A DNA stretch of 47,249 nucleotides from Mangrovicoccus sp. HB161399. Lineage in GTDB: Bacteria; Pseudomonadota; Alphaproteobacteria; Rhodobacterales; Rhodobacteraceae. Below the pieces are notes generated by a model, which worked only from the letters and a program-made list of their open reading frames with translations, was not told where the DNA came from and searched no databases. Both the position numbers and the translations under genes were made by a program. This document shows, in pieces, positions 499 through 26,921 of this stretch. The number at the start of each line of letters is the position of its first letter. The first letter of the stretch is position 1. The stretch lies in NCBI RefSeq assembly GCF_013184745.1, contig NZ_JAATVU010000045.1, positions 1-47,249 of the forward strand, given 5' to 3'.

Positions 499-1558
499 TC
501 AACTTGCGGGGAACTGCAAGTCCGGCGGGGCGGATACTGCGTTCCGCATCGGCGTGCCGTAGACGCCGCCATACTTGAGCATGGCCCAGATCCCGCGCGC
601 TGTCTTGTTCGCGACCGGGACCGTGGCAACATTTGCCGGGCGTCGGCCACGCAGCCGGGCGAGCCACGTCCAGGATTTTCTCCGCCAGCGCATGATCGAC
701 CTGCTGCCGTGGATCAGCAGGCGGCGCAGGTAGCCATTGCCGCGCTTGCTGATCCCGCCGAGACGATCGACGCAGGCTGTGGAATGCTGCCGCGGCACGA
801 GGCTCCGCCAGGCCGCCAAGTGGCGGCCGGACTTATAGTCGTCCGCGGCGCGGGCCGATGCGACGATTGCCGTCGCTTTGACGACGCCGACGCCCGGGAT
901 CGTCATGATCCGCTTGCAGGCCTCGTCCTGCGCGGCGAGGGAAACGTGCCCCTTGTCGATGGATGCCAGCTTTTCGGCAACCTGCTCGAGCTGCTCGACG
1001 AGATAGGGCAGCGCCTGCCGCGCAGCCATGGGCAGGCGGGTGTCTTCCTCGTCCCCGATCACGTCGACCAGAAGCTTCACGCGATGGGCGCGCCGAGGCC
1101 CGACAACGCCGAATTCCGCCAGGTGGCCACGGATCCCGTTGATCGCCTGCGTGCGCTGCCGGATTAGCATCTCCCGCACGCGATGCATCGCCAGGATTTC
1201 CTGCTTGCTCTCCTCCTTGACGGGCGCGAAGCGCATGGACGGCCGGGTCATGGCCTCGCAGATAGCTTCCGCGTCCGCCGCATCGTTCTTGTTCGCCTTG
1301 ACGTAAGGCCGGACATATTGCGCGGGCAGCAGCTCACGTCGTGGCCGAGGCTCCGGAGAGTCCGGGCCCAGCAATGCTGCCGGGACAGGCTTCGAGGCCG
1401 ATCTGGCAAGGCGGCAACGCCCTGAAGAACGGCTCCACCTCCTCGCGCTTGAGCTTCCTGCGCGAGACCGGCTTGCCCTCGCAGTCGGCGGCGTGGACCT
1501 GAAAGACGGACTTGGCGATGTCCAGCACGACAAGGGCAATGGGTTCTGGAATGTTCAA
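499..1558 (-). pseudogene. IS110-family transposase, frameshifted
   Basis: An IS110-type transposase broken by two small indels. The likely start is TTG at 1558, preceded by GAGAGGAG. The first part (LNIPEPIALVVLDIAKSVF) carries the first Asp of the DEDD nuclease fold. Reading frame is lost near the codons for GLEACPGS, briefly resumes as HCWARTLRSLGHDV, shifts again, and then runs openly as LLPAQYVRPYVKANKNDAA through the Transposase_20 region (TIPGVGVVKATAIVASA, then LGGISKRGNGYLRRLL) to the stop at 499. The C-terminus is complete. It lies about 120 bp downstream of lpxB on the same strand. IS110 elements lack clear terminal repeats, so element ends were not set. Confidence 0.85.
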
Positions 1559-20487: not shown

Positions 20488-20643
20488 GGGGGCCTCCTTC
20501 CCGTGGCTTTGCCCCTTCTAGCCGCCGCAGCCCCCCGCGCCAAGTGGCCGTTCCCGGCACCAAGGTGCCGCACGCGATCGTGTCCGGCCCGGCGGCGGCC
20601 GCAATGCCGCCCCCGGCTCCGGAAATCCGCACCTGACGCGGAT

Positions 20644-20672
20644 TTGGTTTTCTGCTCAACGTCAGGTAGAGT
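20644..20672 (+). promoter_or_regulatory. Candidate promoter of the Hcp-like/methyltransferase pair
   Basis: TTGGTT (20644-20649), a 17-bp spacer and TAGAGT (20667-20672). The -10 region overlaps a short inverted repeat, AGAGT-N6-ACTCT (20668-20683), which could be an operator. Transcription would begin about 40 nt before the ATG at 20720. Confidence 0.4.
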
Positions 20673-20719
20673 TCACGGACTCTTTACCATTCATGGACTG
20701 CGCTGGAGGAGGAGCCGCC

Positions 20720-21199
20720 ATGCCCATCGACGTGTATCTCAAGATCCCGGATATCGACGGCGAGTCGCAGATCGCCGAGGCCGAGCGGCTGGTCAAGGAG
20801 TACGGCAGCCAGCTGACCGAGGATGCCGCGGATCTGCTGCTGGCCTTCGCCACGATCGCCGACCGCCAGGACATCGACAGCTTCGACTTCTCCAGCCTGA
20901 CCGTGCCGCCGCCGGATGCCGGGGCCGCCAGCGAGGAGATCACGCTGAACTTCACCAAGATCACCTTCGACTACGACCCCGAGGCAAGCGGCCGCGAGGG
21001 GATGCTGGAAACCCGCGCCTATGCCGCCGAGCTGGAGGCCATGCTGGAGGAACAGGGTTTCGACCTGAAGGTGAAGACCACCGGCACCAATTCCATCGAC
21101 TTCTACCTGAAGCTCGACGGCATCGAGGGAGAGGCGCAGGACCACGGCCGCCCGGACGGCGCGGACCTGACCGATACCGGCGATTTCTTCCTGCTCTGA
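20720..21199 (+). CDS. Small protein with rearranged Hcp-like segments
   Basis: A 159-residue acidic protein of unknown function. Start ATG at 20720 has GGAGGAG about 7 nt upstream. Three pieces look like parts of Hcp-type (type VI secretion tube) proteins: residues 2-17 (PIDVYLKIPDIDGESQ), the first Hcp strand; residues 73-85 (EITLNFTKITFDY), like the last strands of Hcp; and residues 124-142 (NSIDFYLKLDGIEGEAQDH), a second copy of the first-strand motif at the C-terminus. The segments between them (about 20-70 and 95-120) are helical and do not look like Hcp. No other type VI genes are present. Its stop is one base from the start of the next gene. Function not known; relation to Hcp is inference from motifs. 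Confidence 0.6.
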   Translation: MPIDVYLKIPDIDGESQIAEAERLVKEYGSQLTEDAADLLLAFATIADRQDIDSFDFSSLTVPPPDAGAASEEITLNFTKITFDYDPEASGREGMLETRAYAAELEAMLEEQGFDLKVKTTGTNSIDFYLKLDGIEGEAQDHGRPDGADLTDTGDFFLL

Positions 21200-21200
21200 C

Positions 21201-22562
21201 GTGGCCGGAACCCCCTGGGGCGGCGGCTATCCCGTCGCGACGAGCTATCTGGAAACGGCCCAGCCGCTCCAGGCACCGGACCTGATCGACCTGTCGCTGC
21301 TGGCGGCAGGCCATCTCCCGCCGCGCCGCGAGGGCGGCTTCCGCTATGCGGAGCTGGGCTGCGGCACCGGCTTCACCCTGATCGGACTGGCCGCGCTGCA
21401 TCCCGAGGGACAGTTCCTCGGCATCGACTTCATGCCCGAACATGTAGCCCGCGCCCGCGCCTTCATCGCCGAGGCCGGGCTGGCGAACATCGAGATTGCC
21501 GAGGCGTCCTTTGCGGAACTGGCCGCCGCGCCGCCGCCCGCCGCTTTCGACTATGTCGCGATGCACGGGGTCTGGACCTGGGTCTCGGCGGAGAACCGCG
21601 CCCACCTGGCGGCGATCCTCGGGCGCTGGCTGGCGCCGGGCGGCGTCTGCTACAACGGCTATTCAGCCGCGGCCGGCTGGCAGGAGACCGCGCAGATCCG
21701 CCGGATCTTCCGCGAGGCGCCGCAGATCCCCGGCCGCCCGCAATTCGAGGCGGCCCGCGCGGCCGTCGATGCCTGGCTGGCCGCGGGCGGCGGCAGCGAA
21801 ACGGCGGCGCGGCTGTGGAAGAAGCTCGCCAAGCTGCCCGACCGCTACCTCGCGCATGATTTCGGCGCCGAGCATGCCTCGGCCTGCTGGTGCCCCGAGG
21901 TCGCCGCGGCGCTGGCCCCGGCCAAGATGGGCTTCGCCGCCCCTGCCGACCTTTTTGACCAGTTCGACACGCTGCGCTTCGAGCCGGGCTGGGCGGAATT
22001 CGTCCGCAGGGCCGCCGCCGAGGGCTGGGGCGAGACCGCCCGCGACATGGCCAGCGGCCGCGGCTTCCGCACCGACCTGTTCGGCCGCGGCACGCCGCGG
22101 ATAGGCGAGGCGCAGCAGCAGGACCTGCTCGGCCGCATTGCCATCCGGGACTGGCCGCCGCTGCTGCGCCACGAAACGCAGGAGGCCGAGGAGCGCGGCA
22201 AGCGCGGCTTCGGGCCGGAGACCGCCGCCAAGGTCGCCGCGGCGCTGGAGGGCGGCCCGGTAACGATCGGCAGCTTCGCCGCGCGCACCGGCCTGCCTGC
22301 GCGGCAGGGGCTGCAGGCGGCGCTGCTGGGGCTGGCGCGGCGGGAGATCAGGATGGTCGCCCCGCCCGAGGTGCTGGCCGCGCGGGCGGCGCCGGTGAAG
22401 GGCTATCTGGCGGCGCTGCGCAGCCGCCTGGCCCGCGGCGAGCCGGTGCCCGGCGTGGCGTCACCCGCGCTGTCGCAGGTGGTGCCGCTCGGTGCGAACG
22501 AGGCCGCAGCGCTTTCGAGCAGCTGCCTGCCGGAGGCGCTGGCCCGGCTCGGCCTCGGCTAG
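21201..22562 (+). CDS. SAM-dependent methyltransferase with PKMT-type regulatory domain
   Basis: A 453-residue protein starting at GTG, one base after the preceding stop, so the two genes are almost certainly cotranscribed. Residues 45-130 are a class I methyltransferase core: YAELGCGTG (motif I, about 50-57), LGIDFMPEHV, and MHGVWTWVS. The last motif and the long helical part after about 210 resemble the methyltransferase regulatory domain seen in rickettsial outer-membrane-protein lysine methyltransferases. This suggests a protein methyltransferase, perhaps acting on the upstream Hcp-like protein, but that is inference. The stop TAG shares the four bases CTAG with the stop of the convergent remnant. 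Confidence 0.75.
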   Translation: MAGTPWGGGYPVATSYLETAQPLQAPDLIDLSLLAAGHLPPRREGGFRYAELGCGTGFTLIGLAALHPEGQFLGIDFMPEHVARARAFIAEAGLANIEIAEASFAELAAAPPPAAFDYVAMHGVWTWVSAENRAHLAAILGRWLAPGGVCYNGYSAAAGWQETAQIRRIFREAPQIPGRPQFEAARAAVDAWLAAGGGSETAARLWKKLAKLPDRYLAHDFGAEHASACWCPEVAAALAPAKMGFAAPADLFDQFDTLRFEPGWAEFVRRAAAEGWGETARDMASGRGFRTDLFGRGTPRIGEAQQQDLLGRIAIRDWPPLLRHETQEAEERGKRGFGPETAAKVAAALEGGPVTIGSFAARTGLPARQGLQAALLGLARREIRMVAPPEVLAARAAPVKGYLAALRSRLARGEPVPGVASPALSQVVPLGANEAAALSSSCLPEALARLGLG

Positions 22563-22875
22563 CGCCGCGCCCGTCGCCTTGCGTCGGGGAAGAAGCTGCG
22601 GATCTGCGGATGGACGGGCTCGAAATGGCTGCGCGTCGTCCAGAGGAATTCCCGGACCGCCGTCGGCCGGTCCGGGATGGTCCGCAGCAGATGGCCCGCC
22701 AGCGCAAGCCCGACCAGATCGCGCGAACGCGGCGACAGCTGGCGCGGGCCATTCCGGAACATGTGGCGGCAATACGGCAGGTAGTCCCGCCGCTTGCGCA
22801 GCGCGCGGGCGAATTCGGCGGATGCCGTTGAAAACTCGCCGACGATCTGCTCCTCGGGCTGATAATGCGGATGAT
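22559..22875 (-). pseudogene. 3' remnant of an unidentified gene, cut by the IS1182-type element
   Basis: A minus-strand frame with plausible protein character runs from just inside 22875 (HPHYQPEEQIVGEF, then ARALRKRRDYLPYCRHMF, LAGHLLRTIPDRPTAVREFL, IRSFFPDARRRARR) to a TAG at 22559. It has no start: a stop precedes it exactly where the insertion element begins. The family was not recognised. It may be the C-terminal part of the hydrolase whose other portion lies on the far side of the insertion at 25666-26376, since both are on the minus strand and flank the element, but this is a guess. Confidence 0.45.
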
Positions 22876-22876
22876 T

Positions 22877-24215
22877 TCAGGGGATTTTCTGCAAGCCTGA
22901 AGCCCACATGATCGGCCTTCCCAGGCGATCTGCGTCGCGGGTGAGTTCATGGGGGGCGAGCTTGGCCAATTTCCGGAGGTTTTGGGCGATCGCGGCGAGT
23001 GTGAACTCGTCCTTCACGCCCAATGGCCCCCTCAATCGCAAGCGGCCGAGACCCAGGAGACGTTTCAGGATGCGCGAACAGCATCTCGACCTTCTCGCGC
23101 CGCCTCGGGGCCGTCTCGTTGAATGCGGATGCGGTGCAGGTGCGCGCAAAGTCGCGCACGATCTCGTACTTGCCGCGTTGTAGGCTGCGCGTTTCGCTGT
23201 TCGGGCAGCATTGCGTCTTCAAGGGACAAGCCTGGCAGTCGGCTTTTGCAGCGCGATACCTGCGTGCTTTCACCTCGGTCGAGAAGCGCTCCGGATCGGA
23301 ATAGTTCCGCCGCGTGTGTCGCAGCTCCTTCCCGTTCGGACAGATGTAGCGGTCATTCTCTTCGTCCCAGGTGAAGTCGGAACGTGACAAAGTCCCGTCC
23401 GTGCGCTCACCCTTGTCGATTACCGGGATGAAGGGCAGGATCTGCCGCTTCAGGACGATCTCGGCCAGGCCTTCCTTGGAGCCATAGGCCGTATCGGCCA
23501 CCAGCCAATCCGGGCCAATGCCGAAGCGGTCTGCCGTGCGGTCCAGCATCGCAAGTGTGGATCCGACCTCGGCCTGCCGAACCGAAAGGGTCGCTTCGAC
23601 ATCCATGATGATCCCGTGATCCGTGTCGATCAGGTAGTTGTCCGGATAGGCGAAGAAGGCAGGTCCCTTGCGCGCTGCCCTCCATTGGCTGGCGGCATCA
23701 GCATGGGCCGTGAACTTGGGCCTAACGGGCGTGGCCGCGCCGAAGGCCTCCTCATCCAGCGTGTCGAGTTTCTCGCGCACCGCCCACGGGGCTTCCGCCG
23801 GATCGATGGCGGAGGCGTCCCAGTCGCGCTGGCGGCTGGAGCTCCGCTTTTGGAGGTCGGCGCAGATCAGGCTGGCATCGACGGCAAAGCCATGGCCGCC
23901 GACCAAGCCATGGGCGATGCACTGGGCCACCACCCGTTCGAAGACGACGCGGAAGATGTCACTGTCTCGGAACTTGCCATGCCGGAGCTTTGAGAAGCTC
24001 GAAGGATCCGGCACCTTGTCCTCGAGCCCGAGCCGGCAGAACCAGCGACAGGCGAGGTTGAGGTGAACCTCCTGAGGGAGCCAACGCGCGGACCGCAGCC
24101 CCATGACATAGCCAGCCACCAGCATCCGGATCATGAGCTCGGGATCGATCGAAGGCCGCCCGGCATGGCTGTAGAAGCCGCGCATCTCCTCGTGCAGACC
24201 CGCCAGATCCAGGAA
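22877..24215 (-). pseudogene. IS1182-family transposase, C-terminal part
   Basis: DDE transposase of the IS1182 family. From the junction FLDLAGLHEEMRGFYSHAGR the frame runs through GRPSIDPELMIRML, VDASLICADL (first Asp), VADTAYGSKEGL (second Asp) and REKVEMLFAH (Glu). Next to FAH a single extra base (GG at about 23068 on the plus strand) shifts the frame; the proper C-terminus ILKRLLGLGRLRLRG, DEFTLAAIAQNLRKLAKL continues in the next frame to a TGA at 22877. So this copy carries two lesions: the IS110 insertion near its N-terminus and this frameshift. All three catalytic residues lie before the frameshift. Confidence 0.85.
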
Positions 24216-25535
24216 GCATGGGTAGTCGGGCGGCCCTGCGCGTTGGGGTCCGGCTCTGGATAGAAGGCGGATGCATCTGCTGCTCAGGAGAGACCCATGG
24301 ACGACTATGCCGGATTGGACGTGTCACTGCGCTCGGTGGCGATCTGCATCGTCGACGCCAAGGGCAAGGTCGTGCTGGAGAGGAGCGTGACGATCGGATT
24401 TGCCGGGATCATTGCTTGCCTCAACAGTTTTTCCCAGCCCCTGACCCTGGTCGATTTTGAAGCCGGGGCCATGAGCCAGCACCTGTTCCCGGGCCTGAAG
24501 GCCGAGGGCTTCGCAACGGTCTGCATGGAGGCGCGCCAGGTCAATGCCGCTCTTTCGGCAATGAGGAACAAGACCGAGCGGACGGATGCGCGCGGCATCG
24601 CCCAGGTTCTGCGGGCGGCCTGTTTCAGCCCGGTCCATATCAAGAGCCGCGAGGCGCATGCGACCCGGGCGCCGCTGAGCAGCCGGAAAGCGGTCCAGCA
24701 GAAATGCATCGACCTGGCCAACGAAATCCGCGGTCTTTTCCGGGTGTTCGGCCTGCGCCTTCCGGCGCGCGTCGCGCAGCGGGCCTCCGATGGAATGGTC
24801 CGCCCGATCATCGAGGCGGATCCCGACCTGTCGCGGGCTCTGCCGCCGCTTCTGGATGCGCGTGCGGCACTCTACCAGACCTACCAGGAACTTGACCGCC
24901 GGGTGAGGCAGTCGGCGAGCCGGGATGCCATCTGCCTGCAGTTCATGGAGATCCCGGGCGTGGGCACCATTGCCGTGCTCACGTTCCGGGCGGCAGTGGA
25001 TGACCCGGCGCGGTTCGCGCGTTCCAGGACTGTTGCCGCTCCTTCTGGCCTGACCCCGCGCCGATGCCAGTCCGGGGAAATGGACAATCCCGGCCGCATC
25101 TCCAAGGCGGGCGACACCGGCCTCCGGTCCGCTCGGTACGCGGCGGCCAATGCCATGCTGATGAGATCTGCCGCCGGATCGGAGATCAAGAATTGGGGCA
25201 TGCGGCTTCTGCGCCGCAGGGCCCGCCCCCGTGCGATCATTGCCGTCGCCCGTAAGCTTGCCGTCGTCATGCACCGCATGTGGGTGGATGGCACAGAGTT
25301 CCTCCGTGGTCAGGAGGCAGCCGCATGACCTGAAGCCTTCCTGAAACACGGCCGGATCGTCCTCACCGGACGAGGTCCGTGGATGACGCCGAAACCGGCT
25401 GCTGCGGCTGGAACAGAGCGCGACAGAAAGCAGGGCGCTCCTCTGCCGATCCGGCACATGCCTGCAGCGTCCGGCCACGTGTCAGGCCAGATGAGACTGC
25501 GAAGAGAAGCGTGACCCGGATGACCGATTAGAGCA
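24216..25535 (+). mobile_element. IS110-family insertion element (about 1.32 kb)
   Basis: Boundaries follow from the split IS1182 gene: the left flank ends at the codon for Phe (24213-24215) and the right flank resumes with the Arg codon (25536-25538). The trinucleotide GCA occurs at both junctions (24216-24218 and 25533-25535), reading like a short target repeat or shared end. Upstream of the transposase are 81 bp and downstream 207 bp of noncoding element sequence. No terminal inverted repeats are obvious, as is usual for IS110. Confidence 0.75.
24297..25328 (+). CDS. IS110-family transposase (intact)
   Basis: A 343-residue DEDD transposase. The N-terminal RuvC-like part begins MDDYAGLDVSLRSVAICIVD (Asp8), with VDFEAGAMSQ and NKTERTDARGIAQVL supplying further acidic residues. 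The C-terminal Transposase_20 part has FMEIPGVGTIAVLTFRAAVD and the serine-containing stretch LTPRRCQSGEMDNPGRISK. Length is normal and the frame is clean, so this is the only copy in the window that looks able to move. It is inserted in an IS1182 transposase gene in opposite orientation. A relative of the decayed IS110 copy at 46.2-47.0 kb, judging by shared motifs. Confidence 0.92.
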   Translation: MDDYAGLDVSLRSVAICIVDAKGKVVLERSVTIGFAGIIACLNSFSQPLTLVDFEAGAMSQHLFPGLKAEGFATVCMEARQVNAALSAMRNKTERTDARGIAQVLRAACFSPVHIKSREAHATRAPLSSRKAVQQKCIDLANEIRGLFRVFGLRLPARVAQRASDGMVRPIIEADPDLSRALPPLLDARAALYQTYQELDRRVRQSASRDAICLQFMEIPGVGTIAVLTFRAAVDDPARFARSRTVAAPSGLTPRRCQSGEMDNPGRISKAGDTGLRSARYAAANAMLMRSAAGSEIKNWGMRLLRRRARPRAIIAVARKLAVVMHRMWVDGTEFLRGQEAAA

Positions 25536-25631
25536 ACGGTCGATACCCCGGAGGACATGGTCGGACGGGATGGGCGTCTCGAGATCGAACTCGTAAAACA
25601 GCTGGGCGTGAACCTTCTGCCTTCCACGCAT
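25536..25631 (-). pseudogene. IS1182-family transposase, N-terminal part
   Basis: From ATG at 25631 the minus strand reads MRGRQKVHAQLFYEFDLE, TPIPSDHVLRGIDR and then runs into the IS110 element. The pattern (LFY.FDLE...DH.LR.IDR) is the normal N-terminus of IS1182 transposases and supplies what the C-terminal half at 22877-24215 lacks. Upstream has GGGGATCTGGAG as a possible ribosome site. Confidence 0.8.
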
Positions 25632-25665
25632 CGCAATATCTCCAGATCCCCGCAAACCAAGGGAC

Positions 25666-26376
25666 TCAGAAGCTCTTGAGCCGATAAAGCCCGGCGTTTT
25701 CCAACAGTATCGGCCCGTCCGGGAGGCCGCGCAGCAGCGTCCGGACGAAGTCCCCGGGCAGGCCCATGTCGAGCACGTGATCGCCGACCCGGTCCCCGAC
25801 GCCGGTTACCGGGCAGAAAATGACGTCGGGATGGGCCGTCCCGTAGCACCGCAGCTGCGCGCGGTCGGCGCGCAGCTACGGGTCGGCTGCGATGGCGATC
25901 TCGGTCCCGGGCCCCGGCACGGCAGCACTGTCGTTGCGCGGGCCGCTCCAGCCGTGTTCCCTGGCCGCGCCGGAACGGTGTTCCCAAGGGGCGAGCGCCT
26001 CGTCGAGCGTCGAAATCGGGCTGATCAGCACGAGCCTGTCGCAGCGCAGCACGTCAGAGAAGGCCGCCGCCGCAAAGGCGCCCATGGAGGCACCGTAGCC
26101 GATGTGGCGACAGCAGGGCCAGGCATCGACCCTGGCGACGGCCTCCTTGAAAATGGGCAGGAAACTATCGCGGCGGAACCAGGCATCCGGATCGCCTTCG
26201 GAAAAGGAGACCGCGTCGAACCCGTGGCTGCACAGGAAATCGAACCCCCAGCCCCGTCTGGTCTCGAGCGCATTGTGCGCCTCCCCGGCATTGTCGAAGG
26301 CGAAGATGACCGGTCCGTCATTGGCCAGCGGGATGTCCGCCCCATAGTCCCCGTTTTCCAAGCAAATTGCGGCCAT
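25666..26376 (-). pseudogene. Alpha/beta-hydrolase-like gene with an in-frame amber stop
   Basis: Starts MAAICLENGDYGADIPL at ATG 26376 (AGGAG 7 nt upstream). Around residue 110 it has the nucleophile elbow IGYGASMGAFAAAAF followed by LVLISPIST, typical of alpha/beta hydrolases. A TAG at 25878-25876 (codon 167, after EIAIAADP) stops translation, but the same frame continues for 69 sensible codons (RCYGTAHPDVIFCPVTG, GDHVLDMGLPGDFVRTLL, ENAGLYRLKSF) to a TGA at 25666, right beside the IS1182-type element. The late His-containing segment would normally complete the catalytic site, so the product is probably inactive. Substrate unknown. Confidence 0.65.
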
Positions 26377-26477
26377 GACAATCTCCTGCATCTCCAATGG
26401 CACGATCATTGAGCGGCACGAATGCAGGCATCAATGTATGTCGGACGCGTTCGGATGGCCTATCCGGCAGGAAACCG

Positions 26478-26921
26478 TCAGGCGACGGCCTCGATCAGGC
26501 GCTCCCGTCCGCCCATGCGGAACCGGTCGCCGGCCGCGAGGCCCTGCATCTGTTCGAAGACCGGCGCGGTGGCCGAGATGCCGAGGCAAGGGTCGCCGTC
26601 GAAATCGAATTCGGTGGTGGCCACGGCGACGACCAGCCAGCGGCCCTCGACCAGCACGGCCGCGCCCTCCTCGACGCTGGTCTTGGGGCCGAAATCGATG
26701 TCCTGCAGGCGCTCGATCTTGGCTCCGTGCGCGGCGATCGGATTTTCCAGCGCGGCGGCAAGATCGGCCGACTGTTCGGCGCGGCTCTCGCCGTCATGGT
26801 CCATCTGCGTCTCCCCGTCGAGCTCGCTGCCCGCGACGAAATCGGCGAAGAAGCCCTGGTCGTCGTCGAGCTCCGCCCGTTCGAGGTCGAGCATGCGGTT
26901 GCGCAAAGCTTGCTTGTCCAT
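26478..26921 (-). CDS. GreA/GreB-like protein
   Basis: A 147-residue protein. The first 75 residues are charged and helical (DKQALRNRMLDLERAELDDD, ... HGAKIERLQDIDFG) like a short coiled coil, and the C-terminal 70 (VEEGAAVLVEGRWLVVAVA, then LGISATAPVFEQMQGLAAGD) match the FKBP-like C-terminal domain of transcript-cleavage factors. It is shorter than GreA (about 158) and the coiled-coil tip acidic pair cannot be assigned with confidence, so it may be a Gre-like regulator that binds the RNA polymerase secondary channel and not a cleavage factor. It lies 74 bp downstream of ccmE on the same strand. Confidence 0.6.
   Translation of the reverse strand: MDKQALRNRMLDLERAELDDDQGFFADFVAGSELDGETQMDHDGESRAEQSADLAAALENPIAAHGAKIERLQDIDFGPKTSVEEGAAVLVEGRWLVVAVATTEFDFDGDPCLGISATAPVFEQMQGLAAGDRFRMGGRERLIEAVA

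Follow-up and report, generated by a model that had tools for sequence, protein, structure and literature searches.

The two genes and the slot that holds them

The window, that is, the whole stretch of DNA analysed (47,249 nucleotides of Mangrovicoccus sp. HB161399), carries two adjacent forward-strand genes at 20720-21199 and 21201-22562. The features referred to below are as follows.

20720..21199, +, gene of a small acidic protein with Hcp-like edges: 159 aa, pI 4.05, no Cys, 6 Lys; dN/dS 0.13
20720..20788, +, Hcp-like first strand, residues 1-23 (MPIDVYLKIPDIDGESQ...): 18.4 bits; hhalign E 4.5e-9
20924..20986, +, weak Hcp-like last strand, residues 69-89: 5.6 bits; hhalign E 3.7e-4; aligns with PA0085 at a non-significant E
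21095..21175, +, second Hcp-like first strand, residues 126-152: 9.5 bits; PF05638 above cut-off
21179..21196, +, C-terminal GDFFLL, candidate signal for type I secretion, of the same kind in 4 of 4 family members
21201..22562, +, predicted PKMT/KmtA-type protein-lysine methyltransferase: 453 aa, GTG start, class I AdoMet fold plus MethyTransf_Reg (PF10119)
20559..26477, no strand, variable slot between ccmF and the gene at 26478
22947..24185, -, DUF772/DDE_Tnp_1_6-type IS transposase gene, downstream of the pair in the slot
24297..25328, +, IS110-type transposase gene, downstream of the pair in the slot
25876..26409, ORF without Pfam match, flanked by the IS110 element and the slot's ccmE side
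499..1539, IS110-type transposase gene, the third in all, next to lpxB at the window's left end

The coordinates and the start of the second gene one base after the first are those given by the first-pass annotation, and they were confirmed. A single base separates the stop codon of the small gene from the GTG start of the methyltransferase gene, and three bases do so in M. ximenensis (G1026), an arrangement that suggests translational coupling.

The content of the slot varies. In the congener G1027 the ccmF side is kept up to window position 20558, 1.9 kb of other DNA follows, and the sequence is then resumed from window position 26478. The same ccmF-ccmE slot in G031 (L074 3990-5170) holds two other genes, which we take to be lysozyme-like and holin-like. 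When the 49 gene calls of the window were searched with Pfam, housekeeping genes were found on one side (LpxB to IPPT, then ccmH and ccmF) and past the slot (ccmE, ArgC-type, purL-type, GAPDH and gyrA), together with three transposase genes. No type VI secretion (T6SS), type I exporter or RTX gene was detected among these 49 calls, which bears out the earlier remark that no other type VI gene lies nearby. The same annotation had described a mobile-looking island. This is right as to the variable slot and the two IS elements downstream of the pair, but the slot is set among housekeeping genes and the pair is ccmF-adjacent in M. ximenensis too.

In M. ximenensis the small gene is intact, and homology in the methyltransferase ends at about residue 311-322 of 453. 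Both ccmF and the methyltransferase gene break off there on one contig (L004 4315-7554), and the remainder of ccmF lies on another (G1026:C18). Either a rearrangement or the assembly accounts for the break.

The methyltransferase and the neighbourhoods of its relatives

Pfam assigned to the second gene a class I AdoMet domain and, at residues 214-294, the PF10119 'MethyTransf_Reg' domain. With phmmer, PKMT2 was matched at E 3.3e-17 and PKMT1 at E 3.6e-14. The AF2 model had a pLDDT of 81 and a pTM of 0.84, and when it was compared with the PDB by Foldseek, the eight best matches were chains of the rickettsial PKMT1/2 (E from 2.7e-15), followed by Rv2067c. The likeness extends beyond the AdoMet domain (TM 0.50-0.61 over 410-519 columns); the rmsd is 7.7-10.8, and the domain alignment is therefore loose. 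Asp76 and His122 align with D74 and H118 of RtPKMT2 in an alignment to the PKMT2 chain, residues whose roles in AdoMet contact are described in PMC11784438, and both are invariant across 11 aligned sequences, the window enzyme included. Compared with M. ximenensis, the NG86 dN/dS was 0.22, calculated on roughly the first 316 codons.

These results agree with the earlier reading of a PKMT-type enzyme with a regulatory domain. The second gene encodes a PKMT/KmtA-type lysine methyltransferase, whose activity is predicted from the sequence and the model. There is nothing out of the ordinary in the enzyme, which is of a known kind; it is the partner that is unusual. Acinetobacter KmtA and rickettsial PKMT1/PKMT2 methylate outer-membrane proteins (PMC11784438). 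The window enzyme shares with this family the AdoMet fold, the PF10119 region, D76 and H122 and the best Foldseek match, but differs in length (453 aa against 535 for the PKMT2 and 554 for the PKMT1 PDB chain) and in being preceded by an orphan small gene.

At E 1e-30 the enzyme was found in 12 of 295 genomes of the family and in 5 of 61 relatives, the own genome included in both counts; a search of G1027 with the enzyme found none. Among plasmids, 17 records matched the window enzyme and 26 matched its relative from Aureimonas, and 16 places from these lists were examined, 15 of them annotated. That relative, which shows 34% identity over 69% of the window enzyme, is encoded on plasmid pAU20a of Aureimonas sp. 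AU20 (L075 13901-17278), where the PF10119-type methyltransferase gene belongs to a T6SS operon, shares 4 bases with tssG and has a protein kinase gene after it. The resemblance to our locus lies in a related methyltransferase inside an Hcp-bearing operon. The difference is that in Aureimonas the genes form a T6SS operon whose Hcp is annotated as a gene of its own, and no small Hcp-edged gene is annotated among them. A T6SS cluster was present at only this one of the 15 annotated plasmid places.

Other places showed different company. Next to the enzyme gene in Ruegeria and R. rubrum are genes whose annotation reads hemolysin-type calcium-binding or M10 C-terminal, and type I exporter genes are no more than about 10 kb away. 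A gene for a siderophore receptor of the FepA family lies directly upstream of the enzyme gene in Haematobacter (L082 3714-7287) and Acidovorax (L084 3473-7368). Glycosyltransferases are its neighbours in Azospirillum, and some other plasmid places offered nothing telling. An ORF with at least two GGxGxD repeats was found within 6 kb of the enzyme at 10 of 32 loci (the window, which has no such ORF, being counted) compared with 1 of 16 control stretches, the controls being unmatched for species and replicon and the 32 loci not independent, as three come from one genome. The single positive control is the stretch that holds the small gene of G1029, described below. An additional enzyme locus, L097, has RTX genes according to Pfam. 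Within 6 kb of the enzyme's close relatives in G031, G279 and G262, no RTX ORF is present.

It was also observed that PKMT-type genes lie near RTX, DUF4214 or bluetail proteins at L079, L080, L081, L083, L093, L097 and L102, with type I exporter genes close to some of them; in Paracoccus (L102) a FepA gene is separated from the PKMT-type gene by two genes.

The small protein and its Hcp-like pieces

The small gene is a real gene under purifying selection. Over the 477 nt compared with the M. ximenensis copy, identity is 90.6% at both the nucleotide and the amino acid level, and the substitutions fall 8, 5 and 32 on the three codon positions, a silent-site bias (NG86: dN 0.042, dS 0.330, dN/dS 0.13). 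It might be argued that the ORF is a degenerate fragment of an Hcp gene or a misread frame, as its Hcp-like pieces are all short and its structural model is of low confidence. The silent-site bias, the dN/dS and the presence of full-length relatives in a second genus make this very improbable. The model in question was obtained with AF2 from a four-sequence alignment (pLDDT 50.2). It places helices at residues 17-31, 34-49 and 92-111, again with low confidence, it gave no Foldseek match in the PDB at E 1e-3, and it was given no weight as to the fold.

The first-pass annotation had recognized Hcp motifs in an abnormal order. Three Hcp-like pieces were indeed recovered with a profile built from 15 Hcp sequences of the fetched loci: residues 1-23 matched profile positions 1-23, residues 69-89 matched positions 121-141, and residues 126-152 matched positions 3-29. 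The total on the small protein was 37.0 bits, while the best of 5,000 shuffles reached a total of 5.6. When the profile was built from 3 Hcp sequences, the protein scored 30.8 bits against 9.9 for the best shuffle, nearly all of it from the N-terminal piece, the second and third pieces being weak (2.5 and 2.8 bits). When the alignment of the two Mangrovicoccus proteins was compared with Hcp segment by segment using hhalign, columns 1-30, 51-95 and 121-163 gave E 4.5e-9, 3.7e-4 and 8e-5, respectively; the best of 60 column shuffles gave E 0.05, and nothing notable was found for columns 31-68. With the alignment of the whole family, the N-terminal piece alone was aligned (E 1.1e-6). Between the two first-strand copies there is a similarity of score 48, which none of 20,000 shuffled versions of residues 121-159 attained; a looser test of the two halves of the protein gave 26 of 20,000.

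Pfam PF05638 exceeded its cut-off on a single stretch, residues 129-149 (27.5 versus 23.5 bits), and this stretch covers positions 1-21 only, whereas three Hcps scanned in the same way match positions 1-129. The small protein thus carries the Hcp first-strand motif and does not carry the full-length 129-position domain. Judged from the sequence, the likeness to Hcp is strong for residues 1-23, moderate for 126-152 and weak for 69-89, and the rest of the protein is unlike Hcp. In other words, the protein has with Hcp/TssD (PF05638) in common the first-strand motif at both ends, a weak last-strand motif and a similar length, but it differs in that the Hcp core is unmatched and helices are predicted at low confidence. 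A first strand followed by a last strand is how Hcp is normally arranged. The odd features are the missing core and the extra first-strand copy near the C-terminus.

One further resemblance was noticed and rejected. Residues 79-133 (window 20954-21118) show a weak LigD primase-polymerase score with an FDYDP...KTTG pattern. The Pfam match (E 0.0011) falls short of its cut-off and the NCBIfam match has E 0.05, LigD is absent among the PDB sequence matches, and no such match occurs in the relatives from G239 and G1029 (limit E 0.1).

The small protein or its profile was run over overlapping sets from the family (394), the order (390), the class (385), the relatives of G239 (61) and the family again (384). 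Four members were found: those of the window, M. ximenensis, G239 (39% identity in the alignment) and G1029 (23% in a separate alignment). In other genomes the family profile gave weak matches, L036-L042 among them; those whose ORFs were read were Hcps or unrelated (L013). No family member was found in plasmids and phages searched with the window protein, in plasmids searched with the G239 and G1029 proteins, or in viral contigs searched with two alignments of the family. The members of G239 and G1029 adjoin the same ABC substrate-binding gene, 76% identical between both genomes; the substrate-binding gene of the window shows only 23% identity and was rejected as a common neighbour. The second first-strand copy is present only in the two Mangrovicoccus members. 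The G239 member retains the Hcp-like start (11 bits), and the G1029 member (L027 1438-1884, syntenic) has none of the three pieces.

An Hcp was detected with PF05638 in the genomes of the window, M. ximenensis and G239, and no match was obtained in G1029 at E 0.1. Hcp-like start and genomic Hcp are thus present or absent together in 4 of 4 family-bearing genomes. The small protein may accordingly be suspected of being an accessory of the T6SS of its genome, its edge strand binding or capping Hcp rings or riding along with them and the enzyme tuning the protein or the tube. The likeness of the N-terminal piece is specific to Hcp, and in other genera of the same family Hcps start with nearly the same sequence; T6SS genes are present in the genome (Hcp, a ClpB-type AAA ATPase, TssF, gp25-like, ImpE, VipB/TssC, VipA/TssB and ImpA); and the overlap with tssG in Aureimonas fits as well. 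However, the first strand of the genome's own Hcp differs (LYFEGGTQKAEGE), the pair lies on contig C264 and the T6SS on C302, and the concordance with Hcp amounts to one evolutionary contrast. Moreover, a T6SS cluster accompanies the enzyme at 1 of 15 places, and the feature common to all four members is the C-terminal tail and not the Hcp-like start. We regard docking on Hcp as possible, though doubtful. A bolder version, in which the protein is an Hcp mimic that has kept only the edge strands and caps, bridges or leaves with Hcp rings under the control of a dedicated PKMT through lysine methylation, seems unlikely. If it were true, there would be a methylation switch on a type VI tube, and if the small protein does bind Hcp it would be an Hcp-edge mimic. 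Among the papers listed in a literature search for a link between Hcp and methyltransferases, or for Hcp-like or truncated Hcp proteins, none matched.

The C-terminal tail and the relation between the two genes

All four members have a pI of 4.05, lack cysteine and end in an aspartate with hydrophobic residues (GDFFLL, GDFFLL, FDFLL and FDFAFFS). For the type I signal of the protease type, PMC2642768 describes an Asp with three hydrophobic residues after it at the very end of the protein, and it also cites one case in which the acidic residue of the motif is dispensable. A C-terminal acidic residue with hydrophobics, as in the uncleaved signal of a type I substrate, is present in 4 of 4 members, which is suggestive only. 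Of 491 gene calls at 40 loci, a set enriched in methyltransferase neighbourhoods, 9 have a strict form of the tail that was defined after the family had been seen: the four members and five other proteins. Pfam finds RTX repeats in each of these five and DUF4214 in two of them as well. A looser form occurs in 18 of the 491, several of them ordinary cytosolic-looking proteins. Among 134 called proteins of 120-220 aa, three combine a pI under 4.2 with the lack of Cys, and all three belong to the small family; the window copy is not among them because the gene caller used an upstream start. With HasA, serralysins and DUF4214 proteins the small protein shares the lack of Cys, the acidity and the C-terminal Asp with hydrophobics. 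It differs from such type I substrates in having no GGxGxD repeats (two or more were looked for), in the lack of type I genes in the window and in that its secretion is a prediction; HasA illustrates that type I substrates without RTX repeats are possible (PMC8277102). Separately, an RTX-type gene of 441 aa (L043 1996-3321) lies about 6 kb from the small-family member of G1029. No paper on C-terminal DFLL/DFIV signals was returned by a literature search. With edges like those of Hcp and a tail resembling an export signal, the small protein makes up a new orphan family.

The two genes form a real, rare, accessory pair, found in two Mangrovicoccus species only. G239 has a gene of the small family without the methyltransferase, and neither gene was found in G226. 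Around 16 other enzyme genes (15 places, two being tandem) no small-protein-like gene was seen among the neighbours, fourteen of these neighbourhoods being read from composition-based gene calls in which short genes could be missed. The first-pass annotation had proposed a self-contained system and named rare co-occurrence in other genomes as evidence against it. The two genes do occur together rarely, each stands alone elsewhere and the M. ximenensis enzyme is truncated, so that the proposal is not upheld. The neighbours might also share no function at all, a patchwork orphan gene and a solitary PKMT having been joined in a variable slot with IS elements and cotranscribed by chance. The short gaps in both species, which suggest translational coupling, and the constraint on both genes speak to the contrary, and we rate this reading as tentatively as docking on Hcp.

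Our best guess, to which we give a probability of about 0.35, is an accessory two-gene unit of an exported small protein and a methyltransferase modifying that protein or its partner; docking on Hcp comes next, and the lack of a functional link is placed level with docking. In the preferred reading, the small acidic Cys-free protein is most likely exported in unfolded form by a type I secretion system, as its C-terminal Asp-hydrophobic tail would indicate, and would display Hcp-like edge strands at both ends of a non-Hcp core. The enzyme, probably translated in coupling with the small gene, would most likely methylate the small protein, or a surface protein working with it, before export. Both genes are under purifying selection (dN/dS 0.13 and 0.22), the strict tail is otherwise found, among the 491 calls, in RTX proteins, and relatives of the enzyme lie near RTX ORFs and FepA genes. 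On the other side, the window has neither a type I exporter nor an RTX gene, close relatives of the enzyme (G031, G279, G262) lack a nearby RTX ORF, and each gene is found without the other, as in G239 and around the 16 other enzyme genes. The M. ximenensis enzyme is incomplete beside an intact small gene, and lysines are few. That the small protein itself is the substrate is a weak claim because it has 6 lysines in either Mangrovicoccus species, and its distant relatives have 1 and 3.

Among the papers listed in a literature search for lysine methyltransferases with type I secretion none matched, and section 6 of PMC11784438 reports no clear consensus among the targets of PKMT/KmtA. If the small protein is the substrate of the enzyme, it would offer an easily handled protein of 159 aa for studying target choice by PKMT/KmtA. 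The pattern of neighbours, with RTX/type I proteins, FepA receptors and one T6SS operon, may also provide a genomic route to guessing the substrates of this widespread enzyme family.
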